In this document: positions 41,768-50,455 of the stretch, in pieces | Numbering within the stretch: position 1 is the stretch's first letter | Layout of the letters: each line of letters begins with the position of its first letter | Assembly: GCF_016793225.1 (NCBI RefSeq) | Contig: NZ_JAEUMN010000103.1 | Span: 1-53,887, forward strand | Source: Phenylobacterium sp. | Lineage (GTDB): Bacteria; Pseudomonadota; Alphaproteobacteria; Caulobacterales; Caulobacteraceae | Length of the DNA: 53,887 bases | Direction: 5' to 3' | Notes under the pieces: model-generated | Database searches by the model: none | Told to the model about the DNA's origin: nothing | What the model saw: only the letters and a program-made list of their open reading frames with translations | Program-made: the position numbers and the translations under genes

Positions 41768-43036
41768 TCAGCGCAGGGCGCGCCAGCCGATGTCGCGGCG
41801 GCAGAAGCCGTCGGGGAAGTCGATGGCGTCCACGGCCGCATAGGCCTTGTCGCGGGCCTCGCGAAGCGTGGGGCCGACGGCGCAGACGTTCAGGACGCGG
41901 CCGCCCGCCGCGCGCAGGACGCCCCCGGCGTCGCGCTTCGTGCCGGCATGCAGCACCACCACGTCGGGCCCGAAGTCGGCGTCCGCGCCGCGGATCTCGC
42001 CGCCGGCCGAGGGCTTGTCGGGATAGCCCTTGGCCGCCACGACGACGCAGACGGCGCTCTCGTCCCGCCACTTCGGCGGCGCCATCTCGGCCAGCCGCCC
42101 CTGCGCGCAGGCGACGAGGTACGGCACGAGGTCGCTCTCAAGCCGCAGCATGAGCACCTGGCACTCCGGATCCCCGAAGCGGACATTGAACTCCACCAGC
42201 TTCGGCCCCGCGGCCGTCGCCATCAGCTCCACGAAGAGCGCGCCCCGGTACGGCGCCCCGTCCGCCGCGATGCCCGCGAACGCCGGCTCCACGAGCCGCG
42301 TGCGCACCTGCTCGACCAGCTCAGGCGTGAAGACCGGCGCGGGCGAATAGGTCCCCATGCCGCCGGTGTTCGGGCCCTGCTCGCCGTCGAAGGCGCGCTT
42401 GTGGTCCTGTGCCCAGCCGAAGACCATGGAGTCCTTGCCGTCGCACAGGGCGAAGAGGGAGCCGATCTCGCCCTCCAGGAACTCCTCCAGCACCACGCGC
42501 GCCCCGGCCGCGCCGAAGCGGCCGCCGAACGCGTCGTCGATGGCGGCCTCCGCCTCCGCCCGGGTCGGCGCGATGACCACGCCCTTGCCGGCGGCCAGGC
42601 CGTCGGCCTTCACCACATAGGGCGGCTCGAACCGATCGAGGGCGCGCCGCGCCGCCTCCGCGCTCTCGCACACGGCATAGGCCGAGGTGGGCAGGCCGTA
42701 GCGGTCGCAGAAGGCCTTGGTGAAGGCCTTGGAGCTCTCCAGCTGGCCCGCCTGCGCCGTCGGGCCGAAGCAGGGGAATCCCGCTGCGGTCACCGCGTCG
42801 GCAAGCCCGGCGGCGACCGCCGACTCCGGCCCGATCACCACGAGATCGGCGGCGATCTCGCGGGCGAGCTCCACGAGCGCGGGCACGTCGGTGGCGGGCA
42901 CGTCCCGCAACTCCGCCTGGGCGGCCATGCCGGGGTTCCCGGGCGCCGCCACCAGGCGTGTCACCAGGGGAGAGGCGGCGATCTTCCAGGCCAGCGCATG
43001 CTCGCGCCCACCGGAGCCCACGAGGAGGATGTTCAT
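41768..43036 (-). CDS. purD: Phosphoribosylamine-glycine ligase
   Basis: A 422-residue PurD (GAR synthetase), the second step of de novo purine synthesis: ATP-dependent joining of glycine to phosphoribosylamine. It starts MNILLVGSGGREHALAWKI, the family signature, and shows VVKADGLAAGKGVVI (ATP-grasp), GPNTGGMGTYSPAPVF and NVRFGDPECQ. Length is as in other bacteria. The ATG at 43036 faces the signalling operon across a 237-base divergent region. Nothing odd was seen. Confidence 0.95.
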   Translation of the reverse strand: MNILLVGSGGREHALAWKIAASPLVTRLVAAPGNPGMAAQAELRDVPATDVPALVELAREIAADLVVIGPESAVAAGLADAVTAAGFPCFGPTAQAGQLESSKAFTKAFCDRYGLPTSAYAVCESAEAARRALDRFEPPYVVKADGLAAGKGVVIAPTRAEAEAAIDDAFGGRFGAAGARVVLEEFLEGEIGSLFALCDGKDSMVFGWAQDHKRAFDGEQGPNTGGMGTYSPAPVFTPELVEQVRTRLVEPAFAGIAADGAPYRGALFVELMATAAGPKLVEFNVRFGDPECQVLMLRLESDLVPYLVACAQGRLAEMAPPKWRDESAVCVVVAAKGYPDKPSAGGEIRGADADFGPDVVVLHAGTKRDAGGVLRAAGGRVLNVCAVGPTLREARDKAYAAVDAIDFPDGFCRRDIGWRALR

Positions 43037-43099
43037 GGCAGGCGGCTTTGGCGTGGGAGGACCGGGCGGTCAAGGCGTCTGCGGCGTGCGGCGGGATGC

Positions 43100-43125
43100 G
43101 GAACCAAACGCCAAGCTGCGCCGTT
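43100..43125 (+). promoter_or_regulatory. EcfG/sigma-T-type promoter of the hybrid-kinase operon
   Basis: GGAAC (43100-43104), 17 bases, CGTT (43122-43125); read as GGAACC-N16-CGTT it matches the alphaproteobacterial general-stress consensus with no mismatch. Transcription would begin near 43133, leaving a leader of about 140 bases before the kinase start. It lies in the divergent gap with purD and points toward the kinase. Confidence 0.65.
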
Positions 43126-43273
43126 ACGGCGCTTGGGGGGAGTGCTGGTCGGCGATCGACGGGTCCATCTCCTCAGACGGGCTGCTGCGGACCGAACCCG
43201 CCGCCGGCAGTCCGGGCCCGAACTCAGTACCTGCGGCCGCTGACCGCCAGCGGTCGCGCGCCGCCGTTCCAGG

Positions 43274-46200
43274 ATGTCCATGTCCGCTTCCCGCGTCCGC
43301 ATCACTTCGTCGTTCGAATCACGGGTGGACGTCTGGACGACCCTTGGCCTTGTCGCCGTGCTGCTGTTCTTCCTGATCAGCGGCTCGGTCTCGTACCTGA
43401 ACGTCGCGGAACTCCAGGCGAACAATGCGCGCATCCGGCAGTCGCATCGCGTCATCGTGGCGGTGGACAACCTGCGGTCCCTGATCCAGGACGCCGAGAC
43501 CGGTCAGCGCGGATATCTGCTGACCGGCGATCCCCGGTACCTCGAGCCCTACCGGCTCGCCGTCACGAACGCGGCGGCCGCGCAGGATGAAGTGGCGGCG
43601 CTGACGCGCATCAGCCCGGTGCAGCAGCTCAACGCGATCCAGTTGCGGCGAAGCATCGACGCCAAGCTCGCGGAGCTGAAATCGACCATCCTGCTCCGGG
43701 AGACCGAAGGTCCGGAGGCCGCCCTGGCCGTCGTGCGCGGAGACCAGGGTCGCGCGGAGATGGACGCCATCCGCGCCCGCCTCGCCGCCATGCGGCAGGA
43801 GGAGCAACGGGTCCGCGAACTGCTCATCGCGGAGATGCACCAGGCGCAGCAGGCGGCCGTCCTCAGCATCGCGCTCTCCGGTCTTCTGGGCGCGGCGCTG
43901 ACCGTCCTGGTGTTCACCCTCATCCGCCGCGACGCCCGCGCCCGCGCCCGCCAGGCCTGGCTGCAGTCGGGGCAGGTCGAGCTGGCGGACGCCATGATGG
44001 GCGACAAATCGATCGAGCAGCTCTCCGACGCCGTGCTGGCCTTCCTTGCCCGCTACGCCGGCTGCCAGGCGGGCGCCTTGTTCAAGGGGCATGGCGGGGA
44101 CTTCCGGCTCGTGGCGACGTTCGGCGTGCCCGACGGCGCGCCCATTCCCGAGCGTTTCGCGTCCGGCGAGGGCCTGCTCGGCCAGGTGGTCGTCGAGCGC
44201 CGGCCGATCGTCGTCCGCGACGTGCCGGACGGCTATCTCACGATCGGTTCGGCGTTCGGCCGCGGCGCCCCGCGCCATCTCCTGATCGCGCCCGCCATGG
44301 CCGACGGGGTGGTCAACGCCGTGGTCGAGCTCGGCTTCCTCGAGCCGATCGAGGACCGCGTGCTGGACCTCCTGGCGCAGAGCGCCGCCGCCCTGGGCGT
44401 GGCCCTGCGCTCCGCCCGCTACCGGACACAGCTGCAGGAGGCGCTGGAGGAGACGCAGCGGCAGTCCGAGGAGCTGCAGGTTCAGAGCGAGGAGCTCCGC
44501 GTCTCCAACGAGGAGCTGGAGGAGCAGGGCCGCGCGCTCAAGGAATCGCAGGTGCGGCTCGAACAGCAGCAGGTGGAGCTGGAGCAGACCAACAGCCAGC
44601 TCGAGGAGCAGGCCCAGACGCTCGCCGGCCAGCGCGACGAGCTGGAGCGGACGGCCGCGGCGGTCGAGCAGAAGGCGCGCGAGCTGGAGCAGGCAAGCCA
44701 GTACAAGTCGGACTTCCTCGCCAACATGTCGCACGAGCTGCGGACGCCGCTGAACTCGCTGCTCATCCTCTCCAAGCTGCTGGGCGACAATCCGGATGGG
44801 AACCTGTCGGAGGACCAGGTCCGCTACGCCCGCACGATCCAGTCTTCCGGCAACGACCTGCTGACCCTCATCAACGACATCCTGGACCTGTCGAAGATCG
44901 AAGCCGGACAGCTCCAGATCCAGGCCGAGGATGTTCCGCTGCGGCGTCTGGTGACCGACCTGCGCGGGCTCTTCCAGCCGGTGGCGGACCAGCGTGGCCT
45001 GACGTTCGACATCGATCTCGCGGACGACCTTCCCGAGACCGTCGAGACCGATCGCCAGCGCCTGGAGCAGGTCCTGAAGAACCTGCTGTCGAACGCCTTC
45101 AAGTTCACCGAGAAGGGGGGCGTGCGGCTCGCCTTCGCGCGCGCCGGCGCGGACCGCCTCGCCGTGGCCGTCAAGGACACCGGCATCGGGATCTCGGCGG
45201 AGCAGCAGCAGGCGATCTTTGACGCCTTCCGGCAGGCCGACGGGACGATCAGCCGGAAGTACGGCGGCACGGGCCTGGGGCTATCCATCTCGCGCGAGCT
45301 GGCGCGGCTGCTCGGCGGCGCCATCGACCTGAAGAGCGCCCCGGGCAAGGGCAGCACGTTCATGCTGTCGATCCCGTTGGCGTTCGATCCTGCGCGGGTG
45401 GCCGCCTGGGAGCCCCCGACGAGCGCGCCGGCGACGCAGACGGCCCCCGCCACCGAGCCGCTGCCGCAGCGCAGACGCCCGGCGCCGGCCCGACGGGTGA
45501 AGGACGATCGCGAGGCCCCGATGGACGGCCGCAGGGTGCTGCTGGTCATCGAGGACGATCCGAGCTTCGCCGACATCGTCTGCGACCTCTCCCGTGAACT
45601 GGGATTCCGCTGCCTCGTGGCCGACACCGCGGAGGAAGCCCTGGAACTCGCCGCGGAGTTCAAGCCGCACGCCATCGTCCTGGACGTGGGTCTTCCCGAC
45701 CAGTCCGGCCTCACGGTGCTGGACCAGCTCAAGCGTGACGACGCGACCCGCCACATCCCGATCCACGTCGTCTCGGGCGCCGACCACAGCCAGACCGCGC
45801 TGTCCCTGGGCGCTGTGGGCTACCTGATCAAGCCGGTGCAGCGCGAGCAGCTGGCCGAGGTGCTCCAGAACCTCCAGTCGAAGCTGACGCGCACGATGCG
45901 GCGGGTCCTCATCGTGGAGGACGACGACGTGCAGCGCGACGCCGTCAGCCGCCTGCTGGCGTCGGGAGACGTGGAGACGGTCGGGGTCGGCACGGCGGCC
46001 GAGTGCCTGGAAATGCTCAGGTCCCAGACGTTCGACTGCATGGTGCTCGACCTGTCGCTCCCGGACGCATCGGGCTTCTCCCTGCTCGAGACGCTCAGCC
46101 AGGGCGACCACGCCTTCCCGCCCGTGATCGTCTACACGGGCCACGAGCTTTCCGCGGACGACGAGCAGCGGCTGCGGCGCTACTCGAACTCGATCATTAT

Positions 46201-46714
46201 CAAGGGCGCGAAGTCGCCCGAGCGGCTGCTCGACGAGGTCTCCCTGTTCCTGCACCAGGTGGTGGCCGAACTGCCGCCCGAGCAGCAGCGGATGATCCGG
46301 AAGGCGCGCAACCGGGACGCCGTGCTCGAGGGCCGGCGCATCCTCATCGTCGAGGACGACGTCCGGAACGTGTACTCGCTCACCAGCGTTCTGGAACCTC
46401 GCGGCGCCTCGGTGCAGATCGCCCGCAACGGGCAGGAAGCCATCGATGCGCTCGCGCAGTCCGCCGGGGGCTCCGCGCCGGCGATCGATCTCGTGCTCAT
46501 GGACGTCATGATGCCGGTGGTGGACGGGCTCGAGGCGACCCGCCGGATCCGCAGCGATCCGAAGTGGGCCGACCTGCCGATCCTCATGCTGACCGCCAAG
46601 GCGATGCCGGACGACCAGGAGCGCTGCCTGCAGGCCGGCGCGAACGACTACATGGCCAAGCCGATCGACGTGGACAAGCTGCTGTCGCTCGTGCGCGTCT
46701 GGATGCCCCGATGA
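43274..46714 (+). CDS. CHASE3/GAF hybrid sensor histidine kinase with three receiver domains
   Basis: An 1146-residue membrane kinase. Order: helix 1 (about 21-41), periplasmic CHASE3 domain with QDAETGQRGYLLTGD (to about 185), helix 2 (about 195-217), GAF domain (about 240-375), a long coiled coil rich in Glu/Gln (about 380-480), HisKA with His487 in SHELRTPLN, a HATPase with NLLSNAFKFTEKG and GTGLGLSIS, then three receivers with phosphoryl-accepting Asp804, Asp926 and Asp1077. The middle receiver has a degenerate C-terminal region (SIIIKGAKSPERLL). A second ATG (43280) with AGGA five bases upstream is an equally good start. Overlap with cheR (ATGA) shows a coupled operon. Multi-step phosphorelay in a stress response is likely. 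Confidence 0.92.
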   Translation: MSMSASRVRITSSFESRVDVWTTLGLVAVLLFFLISGSVSYLNVAELQANNARIRQSHRVIVAVDNLRSLIQDAETGQRGYLLTGDPRYLEPYRLAVTNAAAAQDEVAALTRISPVQQLNAIQLRRSIDAKLAELKSTILLRETEGPEAALAVVRGDQGRAEMDAIRARLAAMRQEEQRVRELLIAEMHQAQQAAVLSIALSGLLGAALTVLVFTLIRRDARARARQAWLQSGQVELADAMMGDKSIEQLSDAVLAFLARYAGCQAGALFKGHGGDFRLVATFGVPDGAPIPERFASGEGLLGQVVVERRPIVVRDVPDGYLTIGSAFGRGAPRHLLIAPAMADGVVNAVVELGFLEPIEDRVLDLLAQSAAALGVALRSARYRTQLQEALEETQRQSEELQVQSEELRVSNEELEEQGRALKESQVRLEQQQVELEQTNSQLEEQAQTLAGQRDELERTAAAVEQKARELEQASQYKSDFLANMSHELRTPLNSLLILSKLLGDNPDGNLSEDQVRYARTIQSSGNDLLTLINDILDLSKIEAGQLQIQAEDVPLRRLVTDLRGLFQPVADQRGLTFDIDLADDLPETVETDRQRLEQVLKNLLSNAFKFTEKGGVRLAFARAGADRLAVAVKDTGIGISAEQQQAIFDAFRQADGTISRKYGGTGLGLSISRELARLLGGAIDLKSAPGKGSTFMLSIPLAFDPARVAAWEPPTSAPATQTAPATEPLPQRRRPAPARRVKDDREAPMDGRRVLLVIEDDPSFADIVCDLSRELGFRCLVADTAEEALELAAEFKPHAIVLDVGLPDQSGLTVLDQLKRDDATRHIPIHVVSGADHSQTALSLGAVGYLIKPVQREQLAEVLQNLQSKLTRTMRRVLIVEDDDVQRDAVSRLLASGDVETVGVGTAAECLEMLRSQTFDCMVLDLSLPDASGFSLLETLSQGDHAFPPVIVYTGHELSADDEQRLRRYSNSIIIKGAKSPERLLDEVSLFLHQVVAELPPEQQRMIRKARNRDAVLEGRRILIVEDDVRNVYSLTSVLEPRGASVQIARNGQEAIDALAQSAGGSAPAIDLVLMDVMMPVVDGLEATRRIRSDPKWADLPILMLTAKAMPDDQERCLQAGANDYMAKPIDVDKLLSLVRVWMPR

Positions 46715-47550
46715 GCGCGGCGCTGCGGGAGCCGGGCGTCGAGGACCTGGAAATCGACCTGCTCCTGGAGGCGCTGTTCCAGCGCTACCACTATGATTTC
46801 CGCAGCTACGCCCGCGCCTCGATCAAGCGCCGCCTGGTCCAGGCCCGCGACCAGCTGGGCTTCACCAGCATCTCGGCGATGCAGGCGGGCCTCCTGCACG
46901 ACCCCGCCACCCTGGGACGGCTCCTGGGCTACCTTACCGTCCAGGTGAGCGAGATGTTCCGCGACCCGAGCTACTTCCGGGCGCTGCGCGAGAAGGTGCT
47001 GCCGCACCTCAGGACCTATCCCTCGCTCAAGGTCTGGGTCGCCGGCTGCAGCCATGGCGAGGAGGTCTACTCGCTGGCCATCCTGTTCCGCGAGGAGGGG
47101 CTGGAGGACCGCACCATCTTCTACGCCACCGACATCAATCCCGCCGCTCTGCGCGCCGCCGAGGCCGGCGTCTACCCGCTCGAGCTGGTGAAGAAGTTCA
47201 CCGCCAACCACCAGAAGTCCGGCGGGCGGTCCTCGCTCTCGGACTACTACACCGCCGACTACGGCCGCGCGATCCTCGACAAGTCGCTGCGCAGCCGGAT
47301 CGTCTTCTCGGACCACAGCCTGGTGACCGACGCGGTCTTCGGCGAGATGCACCTCATCTCCTGCCGCAACGTGCTGATCTACTTCGACCGGGCCCTGCAG
47401 GACCGGGCCATCGGGCTCTTCCACGACTCGCTCGCGCGCAAGGGCTTCCTGGGGCTGGGACTGAAGGAGAGCCTGCGGTTCTCGAGTCACGCCGGCGCCT
47501 TCGCGGAGTTCGTGCGCGAGGAGAAGATCTACCAGAGGCGCGACCCATGA
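46711..47550 (+). CDS. CheR-type protein methyltransferase
   Basis: A 279-residue SAM-dependent glutamate methyltransferase. The N-terminal helical domain opens LLEALFQRYHYDFRSYARASIKRRL, and the SAM site is seen in VWVAGCSHGEEVYSLAI, YATDINPAAL and ISCRNVLIYFDRALQ. It lacks C-terminal TPRs. No methyl-accepting chemoreceptor, CheA or CheW lies nearby; instead it sits between a hybrid kinase and a CheB-like gene, overlapping both by 4 bases. CheR/CheB pairs joined to CHASE3 or PAS kinases are known outside chemotaxis, where the methylation target may be the kinase's own coiled coil. That target is inferred. Confidence 0.9.
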   Translation: MSAALREPGVEDLEIDLLLEALFQRYHYDFRSYARASIKRRLVQARDQLGFTSISAMQAGLLHDPATLGRLLGYLTVQVSEMFRDPSYFRALREKVLPHLRTYPSLKVWVAGCSHGEEVYSLAILFREEGLEDRTIFYATDINPAALRAAEAGVYPLELVKKFTANHQKSGGRSSLSDYYTADYGRAILDKSLRSRIVFSDHSLVTDAVFGEMHLISCRNVLIYFDRALQDRAIGLFHDSLARKGFLGLGLKESLRFSSHAGAFAEFVREEKIYQRRDP

Positions 47551-48122
47551 CGCGCCCCACCCCCGGAGTGGTCGCCATCGGCGGATCGGCCGGCGCCGTC
47601 CAGGCGCTTCTGCGCATCCTCCCGACCCTGCCGGCCGACTTCCCGGCGCCGATCCTGATCGTGGTGCACGTGCCGCCGGACCGGGAGAACGCCCTCGTCC
47701 CGCTGTTCCAGAACAAGTGCAGGGTGGGCGTGAAGGAAGCCGAGGACAAGGAGGTCGCCCAGCCGGGCGTCGCCTACTTCGCGCCCTCCGACTACCATCT
47801 CCTCGTCGAGGCCGACGGCAGCCTGTCGCTGTCGGCGGACGAGCTCGTGAACCTGTCGCGCCCTGCGATCGACGTCCTCTTCGACAGCGTGGCCGACGCC
47901 TTCGGGTCCGCGGCCACGGCGATCGTGCTCACGGGCGCGAACCACGACGGCGCGGCCGGGCTGAGCGCCGTCGTCGCCGCCGGCGGACACGCCGTCGTGG
48001 AGGATCCGGCGGAGGCCTATGTGGCCGCCATGCCCGAGGCCGCGCTCCGGGCCTGCCCCGGCGCCACGGTGCTGCGGCTGGACGCCATCGCATCGCATCT
48101 GTCCAACCTGAGGGCGCCATGA
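47547..48122 (+). CDS. CheB-type methylesterase without receiver domain
   Basis: A 191-residue protein consisting only of the CheB catalytic domain. The triad is visible: Ser14 in IGGSAGA, His41 in VVHVPP and Asp134 in TGANHDGAAG. PGVAYFAPSDYHLLVE is the family middle segment. Chemotaxis CheB has an N-terminal receiver that restrains the esterase; here it is absent, so activity would depend on partners, perhaps the receivers of the flanking kinases. It overlaps cheR and the next kinase gene by 4 bases each. It should remove methyl esters set by the adjacent CheR. Confidence 0.9.
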   Translation: MTRPTPGVVAIGGSAGAVQALLRILPTLPADFPAPILIVVHVPPDRENALVPLFQNKCRVGVKEAEDKEVAQPGVAYFAPSDYHLLVEADGSLSLSADELVNLSRPAIDVLFDSVADAFGSAATAIVLTGANHDGAAGLSAVVAAGGHAVVEDPAEAYVAAMPEAALRACPGATVLRLDAIASHLSNLRAP

Positions 48123-49261
48123 CCACCGCGAGCGCGCCCATCCACTTCCTGCTGGTCGACGACCTCCAGGAGAACCTCCTGGCCCTGGAGGGGCTGCTGC
48201 AGCGCGACGGCCTGGTCTGCCTGAAGGCGCGCTCGGGCGACGAGGCGCTGGAACTGCTGCTGAGGCACGACGTGGCGCTGGCGCTTCTCGACGTCCAGAT
48301 GCCGGGCATGGACGGCTTCCAGCTGGCCGAGTTCATGCGCGGCGCCGAGGTCTCGCGTCACGTCCCCATCATCTTCCTGACGGCCGGCACGGCGGATCGT
48401 CAGCGCCGGTTCCGCGGCTATGAGGCCGGGGCGGTCGACTTCCTGCAGAAGCCCATCGAGGCGGACGTGCTGCGCAGCAAGGCCAACGTCTTCTTCGACC
48501 TGCACCAGCAGCGTCGGCAGATCATCGCGCAGCGCGATGAGCTCGAAGCCCTCGCCGCGGCGCTCCAGACCGCCGACCGGCACAAGAACGAGTTCCTGGC
48601 GGTCCTCGGTCACGAGATACGCAATCCCGTGATGGCGCTCAGCGCCGGGCTCCACTTCCTCCGGCGCCGGAAGGACCCTCAGAAGACGGACGAGATCCAT
48701 GCCCAGATGGAGCGGCAGGTCGCGCACCTGACGCGCCTCGTGGACGACATGCTGGACATCTCGCGGATCGACCAGGGCAAGATCGCGCTCTGCAAGGACA
48801 CCGTGGCGCTTCAGACGGTCCTGGAGTTCGCGGTCGAGGCCAGCCGGCCGCAAATCGACGCGGCAGGCCACACCTTCACCACGCACATGCCCGCGGCCCC
48901 TGTGAACCTGCACGCCGATCCCACGCGGCTTGCCCAGGTGGTCAGCAACCTCCTAAACAACGCGGCGAGATACACCCCGGCCGGTGGGCGGATCGCCCTG
49001 AGCGCGCGGGTGGTGGACGGCTTCGCGGAGATCGACGTCTCGGACACCGGCATCGGCATCCCGCCCGAGATGCAGTCGAAGATCTTCGAGCTCTTCGCGC
49101 AGGTGAAGAGCCCGACGGAACGGGCCCAGGAGGGGCTCGGCATCGGGCTCGCACTCGGCAAGCAGCTCATGGAGCTGCATGACGGAACCATCTCGCTCAC
49201 GTCCAGCACGCCGGGGGCGGGCAGCACCTTCCGGATCCGTCTGCCGGTGCTCGGCGCCTGA
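48119..49261 (+). CDS. Response regulator-histidine kinase hybrid (REC-HisKA-HATPase)
   Basis: A 380-residue soluble protein. The N-terminal receiver has acidic pair Asp14/Asp15, acceptor Asp58 (LLDVQMPG) and Lys111 (FLQKPIE). A short coiled coil (about 128-155) leads to HisKA with His165 in LGHEIRNPV and a HATPase with NLLNNAARYTPAGG, DTGIGIPP and GLGIGLALGKQL. It has no membrane helix or sensor domain, so its input is probably phosphoryl transfer from the upstream hybrid kinase. It is the fourth and last gene of the operon; an EcfG-type promoter and a terminated small-RNA unit begin 3 bases after its stop. Confidence 0.9.
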   Translation: MTTASAPIHFLLVDDLQENLLALEGLLQRDGLVCLKARSGDEALELLLRHDVALALLDVQMPGMDGFQLAEFMRGAEVSRHVPIIFLTAGTADRQRRFRGYEAGAVDFLQKPIEADVLRSKANVFFDLHQQRRQIIAQRDELEALAAALQTADRHKNEFLAVLGHEIRNPVMALSAGLHFLRRRKDPQKTDEIHAQMERQVAHLTRLVDDMLDISRIDQGKIALCKDTVALQTVLEFAVEASRPQIDAAGHTFTTHMPAAPVNLHADPTRLAQVVSNLLNNAARYTPAGGRIALSARVVDGFAEIDVSDTGIGIPPEMQSKIFELFAQVKSPTERAQEGLGIGLALGKQLMELHDGTISLTSSTPGAGSTFRIRLPVLGA

Positions 49262-49263
49262 GC

Positions 49264-49288
49264 GGAACGACCCGCGGGGACGTGCGTT
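49264..49288 (+). promoter_or_regulatory. EcfG/sigma-T-type promoter of the small RNA
   Basis: GGAAC (49264-49268), 16 bases, CGTT (49285-49288), matching the general-stress consensus exactly. The predicted start of transcription is about 49294. The next thing downstream is a strong terminator at 49367-49397, not a gene, so the promoter should make a transcript of about 104 bases. Confidence 0.7.
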
Positions 49289-49293
49289 CAGGT

Positions 49294-49397
49294 GGGGCGA
49301 GTGAGCTCCCCCCCGCTAACCGCAATCGCCGCATCCCCGCCGACCGGCGTGGGACGCGCGCAGAGAGGCCTTCGGCGGCGACGCCGGAGGCCTTTTT
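49294..49397 (+). ncRNA. gsrN: Candidate stress-induced small RNA, GsrN-like
   Basis: Between an exact EcfG-type promoter and a strong intrinsic terminator lies a non-coding stretch of about 104 bases. Its 5' part contains a seven-C run (49308-49314, GAGCTCCCCCCC) that can lie in the loop closed by GGCG and CGCT. A middle hairpin CGCCG-AC-CGGCG (49338-49349) and the terminator hairpin follow. In Caulobacter crescentus the sigma-T-dependent sRNA GsrN is about 105 nt, has a C-rich 5' loop that pairs with target leaders such as katG, and is cut to a stable 5' half. Length, promoter class and C-rich loop all match; orthology is inferred and was not checked by alignment. Confidence 0.65.
49367..49397 (+). 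terminator. Intrinsic terminator of the small RNA and kinase operon
   Basis: GGCCTTCGGCG (49367-49377) pairs with CGCCGGAGGCC (49382-49392) over 11 bp with one G-U pair, loop GCGA, followed at once by TTTTT (49393-49397). It is the clearest Rho-independent terminator in the window. Confidence 0.88.
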
Positions 49398-49421
49398 CGC
49401 ATCCCCGCGGGCCTCTCCAAG

Positions 49422-49482
49422 GCGATATCGCGTTCGGCGACCGGCGGCCTTGAGTCGCAACCCCACGGCGCCGAGGTTGCGA
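49422..49482. promoter_or_regulatory. Palindromes upstream of the HisKA_2 kinase gene
   Basis: GCGATATCGC (49422-49431) is a perfect 10-base palindrome. TCGCAACC (49455-49462) and GGTTGCGA (49475-49482) form a perfect 8-bp inverted repeat with a 12-base spacer. A GATAGT at 49481-49486 could be a -10. They lie 40 to 100 bases before the kinase start and are the only regulatory-looking sites in this part of the gap. Confidence 0.4.
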
Positions 49483-49521
49483 TAGTCTGGCGACCACAGC
49501 GGCCGAACGACGGGAGACGGG

Positions 49522-50172
49522 ATGGCCAGTCCGAAGATCGACGGGCCCGAGGCTGCGCTCGAGCGACAGGTCGAACGCGCGCGCGAGATCGAGCACCGGG
49601 TCAAGAACACGCTGCAGCTCATCTCCTCCATCGTGCTGCTGCAGGGCCGCCGATCGGCCGACGAAGGCGCGAAGGCGGCGCTTCGGGCCGTCCAGCAGCG
49701 GGTCGCCGCCGTCAGCGTCGCGCACCGTCATGTGGCCTGGGCCGACGAGCGCGAGGAGGTGGAGCTGGCCGCCCTGGTGCGCGAGATCGTCAGCGACCTG
49801 GCGGGCTCGGCCGGCCGCGAAGGCGTGGACATCGATCTCGACCTCGACGCCGTGACCATTCCGGGCCCCCAGGGCGCGTCCGTCGCCCTGCTTGTCAGCG
49901 AGACGGTGGGCAACGCCCTGCGCCACGCCTATCCCGACGGCCGCACCGGCCGCGTGCGGGTAGCCCTGCGGCGCACTGCGACCGGGTTCGAGCTATCCGT
50001 GGCCGACGATGGCGTCGGCGTCCCGCCGGGCGCGCCGCCGACCGGCTTCGGCCTGACCGTCGCCCAGCTGATGGCGCAGCAGCTCCGCGGACGACTGGTG
50101 ACCGACGTGGCGCAACCCGGCGTCCGGATTTCCGTTAGCGTTCCCATGGACAGCGACGCCGCACGGGGCTGA
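49522..50172 (+). CDS. Minimal HisKA_2/HWE-type histidine kinase
   Basis: A 216-residue soluble kinase with no sensor domain. His25 in EIEHRVKNTLQLISSIV is the HisKA_2 phosphorylation motif (HRVKN). The ATP-binding part shows LLVSETVGNALRHAYPDG, VADDGVGVPPG and TGFGLTVAQLMAQQL. Kinases of this group in alphaproteobacteria often phosphorylate PhyR-type regulators of the general stress response, which suits the EcfG-type promoters next door. With so little N-terminal sequence it must receive its signal through a partner or another protein's receiver. The ATG at 49522 has GGGAG five bases upstream. It is followed by the SemiSWEET gene after 4 bases. Confidence 0.87.
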   Translation: MASPKIDGPEAALERQVERAREIEHRVKNTLQLISSIVLLQGRRSADEGAKAALRAVQQRVAAVSVAHRHVAWADEREEVELAALVREIVSDLAGSAGREGVDIDLDLDAVTIPGPQGASVALLVSETVGNALRHAYPDGRTGRVRVALRRTATGFELSVADDGVGVPPGAPPTGFGLTVAQLMAQQLRGRLVTDVAQPGVRISVSVPMDSDAARG

Positions 50173-50176
50173 CGCC

Positions 50177-50455
50177 GTGATTTCGATCGCCGACGTCGTG
50201 GGCACAGGCGCCGCCTTGTGCTCGATGACCAGCTTCGTGCCGCAGATCCTGAAGATCTGGCGCGAGCGCGACGCGACCTCGGTGTCGCTGCGCATGTACG
50301 CCGTGACCGTCACGGGATTCGCGCTCTGGATCGCCTACGGGGTCATGACCAACGCCTGGCCGGTCGTGGGCGCGAACACCGTCTGCCTCGGCCTCTCGGC
50401 GACGATCCTGGTGCTGAAGTGGCGCTTCTCCCAGCGGGCCGCGCCGGCAGCGTGA
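50177..50455 (+). CDS. SemiSWEET (PQ-loop) sugar transporter
   Basis: A 92-residue membrane protein with three helices and the PQ-loop SFVPQILKIWRERDATSVS, followed by AVTVTGFALWIAYGVMTNAWPVVGANTVCL (in parts). SemiSWEETs dimerise to carry sugars such as sucrose or glucose down a gradient across the inner membrane. It starts with GTG at 50177, 4 bases after the kinase, so they are co-transcribed. A sugar carrier coupled to a stress-type kinase is unusual; osmolyte movement is one possibility but is not shown. Confidence 0.88.
   Translation: MISIADVVGTGAALCSMTSFVPQILKIWRERDATSVSLRMYAVTVTGFALWIAYGVMTNAWPVVGANTVCLGLSATILVLKWRFSQRAAPAA

Follow-up and report, generated by a model that had tools for sequence, protein, structure and literature searches.

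GsrN as the Closest Described System

GsrN is a sigma-T/EcfG-dependent small RNA of the Caulobacteraceae which, according to PMC5869019, exposes a C-rich 5' loop, pairs with the katG leader, is cleaved to a stable 5' isoform of 51-54 nt, and is usually encoded near the GSR genes, Phenylobacterium included. Stabilization of GsrN by Hfq is among the topics treated in the same source. The window analyzed here (the whole stretch of 53,887 nucleotides of a Phenylobacterium sp. contig, NZ_JAEUMN010000103.1) harbors at positions 49264-49397 an element of apparently similar build, which a sequence-only reading regarded as the GsrN ortholog or, alternatively, as a new sRNA of the same design. Indeed, GsrN and the candidate are alike in possessing a GGAAC/CGTT promoter, a run of C near the 5' end, a length of ~100-106 nt and an intrinsic terminator. 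However, GsrN is hallmarked by a strongly conserved long stem closing a loop composed of the C run and GACTTG and by the usual proximity to phyR-nepR-ecfG, and the candidate lacks both.

No report on this element or on the adjoining operon was found in the literature searched (most subscription journals lay outside the search). A term search of PMC6599016 gave no hit for small RNA, non-coding, CheR or CheB; in PMC7083833, a non-coding RNA came up in one reference, and cheB and cheR were named in one passage.

gsrN in the Genus and in the Genome

The gsrN genes of the genus follow a uniform plan: a GGAAC promoter, a TGCGGAGGC... stem, a C loop followed by GACTTG, and the returning stem. A relaxed motif search revealed gsrN at 37 of the 41 GSR loci read (the own locus and 40 others); for loci L114, L131, L132 and L139, it lies elsewhere in the genome. 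In the genomes G010, G192, G213 and G148, gsrN is situated away from the GSR genes, as it is in Caulobacter crescentus according to PMC5869019. The loop run comprises 6-9 C in 42 rows of the search and 14 in one, the latter being an expanded run on the minus strand of L118 (~7600). Averaged over 43 rows (that of L069 included), these C runs have an unpaired probability of 0.89, the lowest value being 0.03.

A covariance model was constructed from 33 of 42 copies, leaving out the copy of the genome under study; one of the 43 rows of the motif search (L069) turned out not to be gsrN and was likewise kept out of the model, the match in that genome being located on another contig. In the 33 aligned copies, GACTTG is invariant and the TGCGGAGG...CCTCCGCA stem is largely kept. 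The resulting model matches 73 of the 101 genomes of the genus. It corresponds to the GsrN of C. crescentus by the published description in PMC5869019, and not by its letters. The complement of one GsrN target site listed there (CCNA_00894) reads GCCCCGACUUGA; a motif derived from a target site of that source and requiring CGTT matched 7 of 60 genomes, the genome under study not being among them, and only the match in G030 was a true gsrN. The -10 element of gsrN in loci L062 and L100-L119 is often GTGTT, GGGTT or GAGTT instead of CGTT; hence, scans for exact CGTT miss gsrN.

In the genome under study, the model (its own copy excluded) yields a sole match at E 0.01 or better, a canonical gsrN scoring 89.4 bits at G000:C92:7894-7973 on the minus strand (locus L062). 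This copy, with its -35 GGAAC kept and its -10 deviating, is found ~2 kb from the NepR match, beside phyR-nepR-ecfG. The NepR match is the only one in the genome and resides on the same contig, flanked by a PhyR protein and an ECF sigma factor, both assigned by Pfam, so the genome carries the PhyR-NepR-EcfG module; a HisKA_2 kinase, also recognized by Pfam, adjoins these genes.

A search of the candidate with a GsrN covariance model had been proposed in the sequence-only reading as a check. With all filters off, the element scores 4.0 bits (E ~1), ranking fifth of 19 matches in 901 bases. The best of these 19 matches (9.8 bits) falls inside the HWE kinase gene, so the score of the candidate represents noise. 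Reading of the letters at 49264-49397 discloses neither the TGCGGAGG...CCTCCGCA stem nor the GACTTG loop. Thus, with the true gsrN located elsewhere in the genome and the candidate failing the gsrN model, the assignment as a GsrN ortholog was rejected: the element at 49264-49397 is not GsrN. At the gathering score, Rfam gave no match in the window; a permissive scan of 49230-49530 gave 12 sub-threshold matches, the best of which, ctRNA_p42d, coincided with the terminator and reached 29.4 bits, the cut-off being 50.

Layout of the Element and of the Adjoining Operon

The element resides on the + strand immediately after a kinase gene whose stop codon ends at 49261, 2 nt 5' of the promoter. The EcfG-type promoter (49264-49288) is exact, consisting of the -35 GGAAC at 49264-49268, a spacer of N16 and the -10 CGTT at 49285-49288. 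It would be followed by a putative short non-coding transcript of ~100-104 nt (49294-49397), for which the promoter spacing predicts a start at 49294-49297. This stretch includes the run of seven C (49308-49314), a middle hairpin of the predicted fold (49328-49361) and an intrinsic terminator (49367-49397), whose arms at 49367-49377 and 49382-49392 form 11 pairs, one of them G-U, around the 4-nt loop GCGA and precede T5 at 49393-49397. The letters therefore bear out the promoter, the seven-C run near the 5' end and the 11-bp terminator with five Ts as originally noticed. The description of the ~104 bases as non-coding holds as well: a small protein gene was considered and rejected, since none of the three + strand ORFs touching 49264-49397 (41, 67 and 53 aa) is convincing, the 41-aa ORF overlapping the kinase end and the 67- and 53-aa ORFs traversing the terminator.

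Upstream of the element, an operon encoded on the + strand begins with another exact EcfG-type promoter, GGAAC-N17-CGTT at 43100-43125, with sites present in relatives. It comprises, as assigned by Pfam, a CHASE3-GAF-HisKA-HATPase hybrid histidine kinase with three receiver domains (43274-46714), a CheR-type methyltransferase (46711-47550 with a presumed start, the Pfam assignment being made on 46738-47547), a CheB-type methylesterase (47547-48122), and the receiver-HisKA-HATPase kinase (48119-49261) preceding the element. The left neighbor of the operon is purD (41768-43036, minus strand; Pfam GARS_N/A/C), 82-89% identical in 8 relatives, and its right neighbor is a HisKA_2/HWE-type histidine kinase (49522-50172, + strand; Pfam), which has a conserved upstream region from ~49420, kept in relatives without the insertion described below.

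The purD and HWE kinase genes are adjacent in 8 of 9 relatives, with 155-262 nt separating the HWE kinase from the divergent purD start (the HWE kinases of the nine relatives are 70-81% identical, ten of 19 loci at <=36% having been left out). Homology to this undisturbed place stops at ~43074 and resumes at ~49420. Hence, ~6.3 kb are inserted here, and the flank alignments together with the neighbors in relatives place the approximate limits of the inserted cassette, composed of the operon, the candidate and the terminator, at 43075-49419. Neither purD nor the HWE kinase was present in any of 13 stretches of up to 11.5 kb surrounding the operon in relatives. In ten operon-bearing genomes, drawn from the 15 other genomes matching the kinase, a relative of the HWE kinase (48-81% identical) was found eight times, each on a contig different from that of the operon, and no such relative was found in the other two at E 1e-40. 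The stretch 3' of the operon also differs among relatives. The differing neighbors and the undisturbed purD-HWE kinase pair in relatives indicate that the candidate constitutes the right-hand end of a relocating cassette. The segment 43100-49261 of the window can itself be described as a stress-regulon-linked, relocating sensor cassette with different neighbors in relatives.

Evidence for the EcfG-Type Promoter

Exact promoter matches (N15-17) number 63 in the whole genome versus 36 for the reversed control; therefore, an exact match taken alone is weak evidence. The position of the sites is more telling. A crude ORF caller, which covers 41 of the 63 sites and which mistook an over-long ORF spanning nepR for a gene, so that its output is suitable for proportions only, places 27 of 41 exact sites outside genes. 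Around 30 of these sites, 20% of the positions are non-genic; the share is 22% for the window and 33% for the GSR locus. Exact sites thus fall outside genes ~3x as often as the surrounding positions, which suggests that the non-genic matches mostly are not due to chance. By the reversed control, the chance share would be 36/63 over all sites and roughly 7/41 among the non-genic sites, the latter being an estimate extrapolated from 41 of the 63. The promoter of the own gsrN is absent from the 63 exact sites because its -10 deviates.

The context of the operon points in the same direction. An EcfG-type site upstream of the operon is present in all 5 closest relatives (exact in four of them and with a mismatch in one) and in 6 of 12 relatives overall, versus 2, 0, 1 and 1 of 12 for four control motifs (the contig-cut place L196 was left out of this count). 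Likewise, half of the relatives (7 of 14) have an EcfG-like site <=70 nt after the corresponding kinase, where each of four control motifs scored 0 of 14; the EcfG background of this search was 0.02-0.05 per place. The 14 places exclude the own locus and the broken or duplicate L152, L156 and L157 and include L153-L155, whose kinases are only ~50% identical. These congener sites are similar to the candidate in their distance from the kinase end but differ from it in that each of the seven carries one mismatch and in that they lead, where the next genes were read by eye, into genes for proteins, not RNAs, instead of a terminator; the next gene is one and the same for three of the seven. For these reasons, they support a stress-regulated neighborhood rather than this particular RNA.

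Two scans of the 63 sites addressed the terminators. The stricter one (330 nt downstream, T4 tail), which misses the true gsrN terminator with its T-poor tail devoid of T4, detected any hairpin <= -10 kcal/mol within 330 nt at 7 sites and a hairpin <= -20 kcal/mol at two, namely at 49264 (129 nt) and at a site of the GSR locus (259 nt); within 150 nt, 49264 was the only one of the 63 with a hairpin of this strength. A scan with a looser tail, which does detect the gsrN terminator, returned 9 sites with a hairpin <= -15 kcal/mol and two with a hairpin <= -20 kcal/mol within 150 nt, 49264 and G000:C74:3825. The latter site deserves a separate mention: the stretch G000:C74:3825-3990 (locus L059, 1501-1660) has an exact EcfG site and, 112 nt on, a hairpin of -25.6 kcal/mol, which has a T-poor tail and is followed ~10 nt later by the start of a 72-aa ORF. 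A BLAST search of the other 100 genomes returned no match to it, and it may represent either a leader subject to attenuation or a further short transcript of the stress response.

A Putative Short Transcript at the Cassette End

Overall, the promoter at 49264-49288 is probably real, and an EcfG-dependent short transcript is plausible because this promoter has both statistical and contextual support. The explanation we favor, at slightly better than an even chance, is that a real EcfG promoter fires a terminated transcript of ~100 nt at the right-hand boundary of an inserted kinase operon under EcfG control. Under stress, EcfG would be freed from NepR, and the polymerase carrying EcfG would start at ~49295 to give a non-coding transcript of ~100 nt ending at 49397. 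The same terminator would end the operon mRNA and shield the HWE kinase located downstream; that the structure at 49367-49397 also terminates the upstream kinase operon is probable in its own right.

The strongest competing explanation, which we consider unlikely though deserving serious attention, is that only the terminator matters: its role would be to end the kinase operon, with the promoter-like match and the C run directly behind the stop codon being products of chance in GC-rich DNA. A terminator is to be expected where an operon precedes a gene on the same strand, and within 330 nt from 49264 this was the sole one detected by the T4 scan; the 36 reversed-control matches in the genome, the lack of relatives of the candidate and the shuffle-like folding of its part 5' of the terminator also agree with a fortuitous promoter. 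Against this stand the excess of exact sites outside genes and the post-kinase EcfG-like sites, which none of the controls reproduced.

Folding, C-Run Exposure and Conservation

The terminator is the only part of the predicted RNA with a convincing fold. With -28.8 kcal/mol, it reached z -6.82 against shuffles (0/200 as good), and similar terminators with regard to stem, loop and T run occur among BLAST matches in relatives. A separate terminator scan of 48900-50200 listed none; the structure at 49367-49397 was perhaps missed there owing to the ability of its T run to pair with the upstream AGAGAG. The 68 nt 5' of the terminator (49294-49361) gave z -1.44, with 18/200 shuffles as good, and the z of -4.39 recorded for the whole predicted RNA is therefore owed mostly to the terminator. 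Accordingly, the middle hairpin announced in the sequence-only reading does fold, but no better than shuffled sequence.

The accessibility of the C run depends on where the RNA starts. For the start at 49294 adopted initially, its mean unpaired probability is 0.30; it rises to 0.81 for the start at 49295 and to 0.98-1.0 for starts at 49296-49299. With a start at 49293 or 49294, pairing with GGGG 49294-49297 mostly closes the C run, and from 49295 on it is open.

A BLAST search with the candidate gave matches in 31 of 99 congeners, all the listed matches starting at query position 70 or later and most of them falling in the terminator. No match over the promoter or the C run was returned from these 99 congeners (up to 8 first-look candidates were scored per genome, a depth at which a weak relative could be missed), and 0 of 15 kinase-homolog places share the candidate. 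Intrinsic terminators of the genus with a GGCG-loop-CGCC core resemble 49367-49397 in stem, loop and T run; of nine such BLAST matches inspected, eight are hairpins with a T run. Unlike the candidate, the aligned parts lack the promoter and the C run. The best reading of this pattern is that the putative transcript is lineage-specific.

These data bear on the more ambitious proposal of a functional, trans-acting C-rich sRNA, an independently arisen analogue of GsrN whose C run would pair with G-rich leaders. Promoter, C7 and terminator do occur in the right order and size, and a start of the RNA at 49295 or further on would leave the C run open. Nevertheless, we judge this proposal rather improbable: the 5' half has no BLAST match in 99 congeners, structure 5' of the terminator is not significant, the C run is mostly closed for the start at 49294, such runs are cheap in GC-rich DNA, and a canonical gsrN is already present in the genome. 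The suggestion of an sRNA of the same design as GsrN finds no backing other than in the promoter, the C run and the terminator: a significant structure 5' of the terminator, an exposure of the C run independent of the start and any relative are wanting. Trans regulation by the putative RNA, or a target for it, is unsupported.

Still less probable is that the EcfG promoter drives the HWE kinase (49522-50172), the terminator acting as a leaky attenuator. The kinase is encoded on the same strand 234 nt away, the neighboring kinase operon has an EcfG-type promoter, and the EcfG site of G000:C74 also features a hairpin between the promoter and a small ORF; however, the -28.8 kcal/mol terminator intervenes, and the kinase retains the upstream region that is conserved in relatives lacking the insertion. 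Finally, the idea that the candidate is the gsrN ortholog of this genome, inviting though it may look given an EcfG promoter, a C run close to the 5' end and a length of ~104 nt with a terminator, can be dismissed with near certainty in view of the canonical copy elsewhere (89.4 bits), the 4.0 bits of the candidate and its lack of the TGCGGAGG stem and the GACTTG loop.

Implications

The combination of a promoter, a C run and a terminator proved insufficient to call an RNA GsrN, and a tempting mis-assignment is hereby corrected. The covariance model separates gsrN from the candidate clearly (89.4 vs. 4.0 bits), and a usable gsrN model has been obtained for the genus. The EcfG-type promoter on the kinase/CheR/CheB/kinase operon, seen in all 5 closest relatives, and the differing neighbors of this operon suggest that the general stress regulon and its sensors are linked by feedback. 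It is doubtful that a second, non-GsrN, EcfG-dependent regulatory RNA was born recently at the right-hand end of the inserted stress-kinase cassette; if it was, a relocating sensor operon would carry or acquire its own small RNA. Should the favored short transcript be real, it would offer a simple case for studying the origin of a stress-regulated RNA at a new junction.
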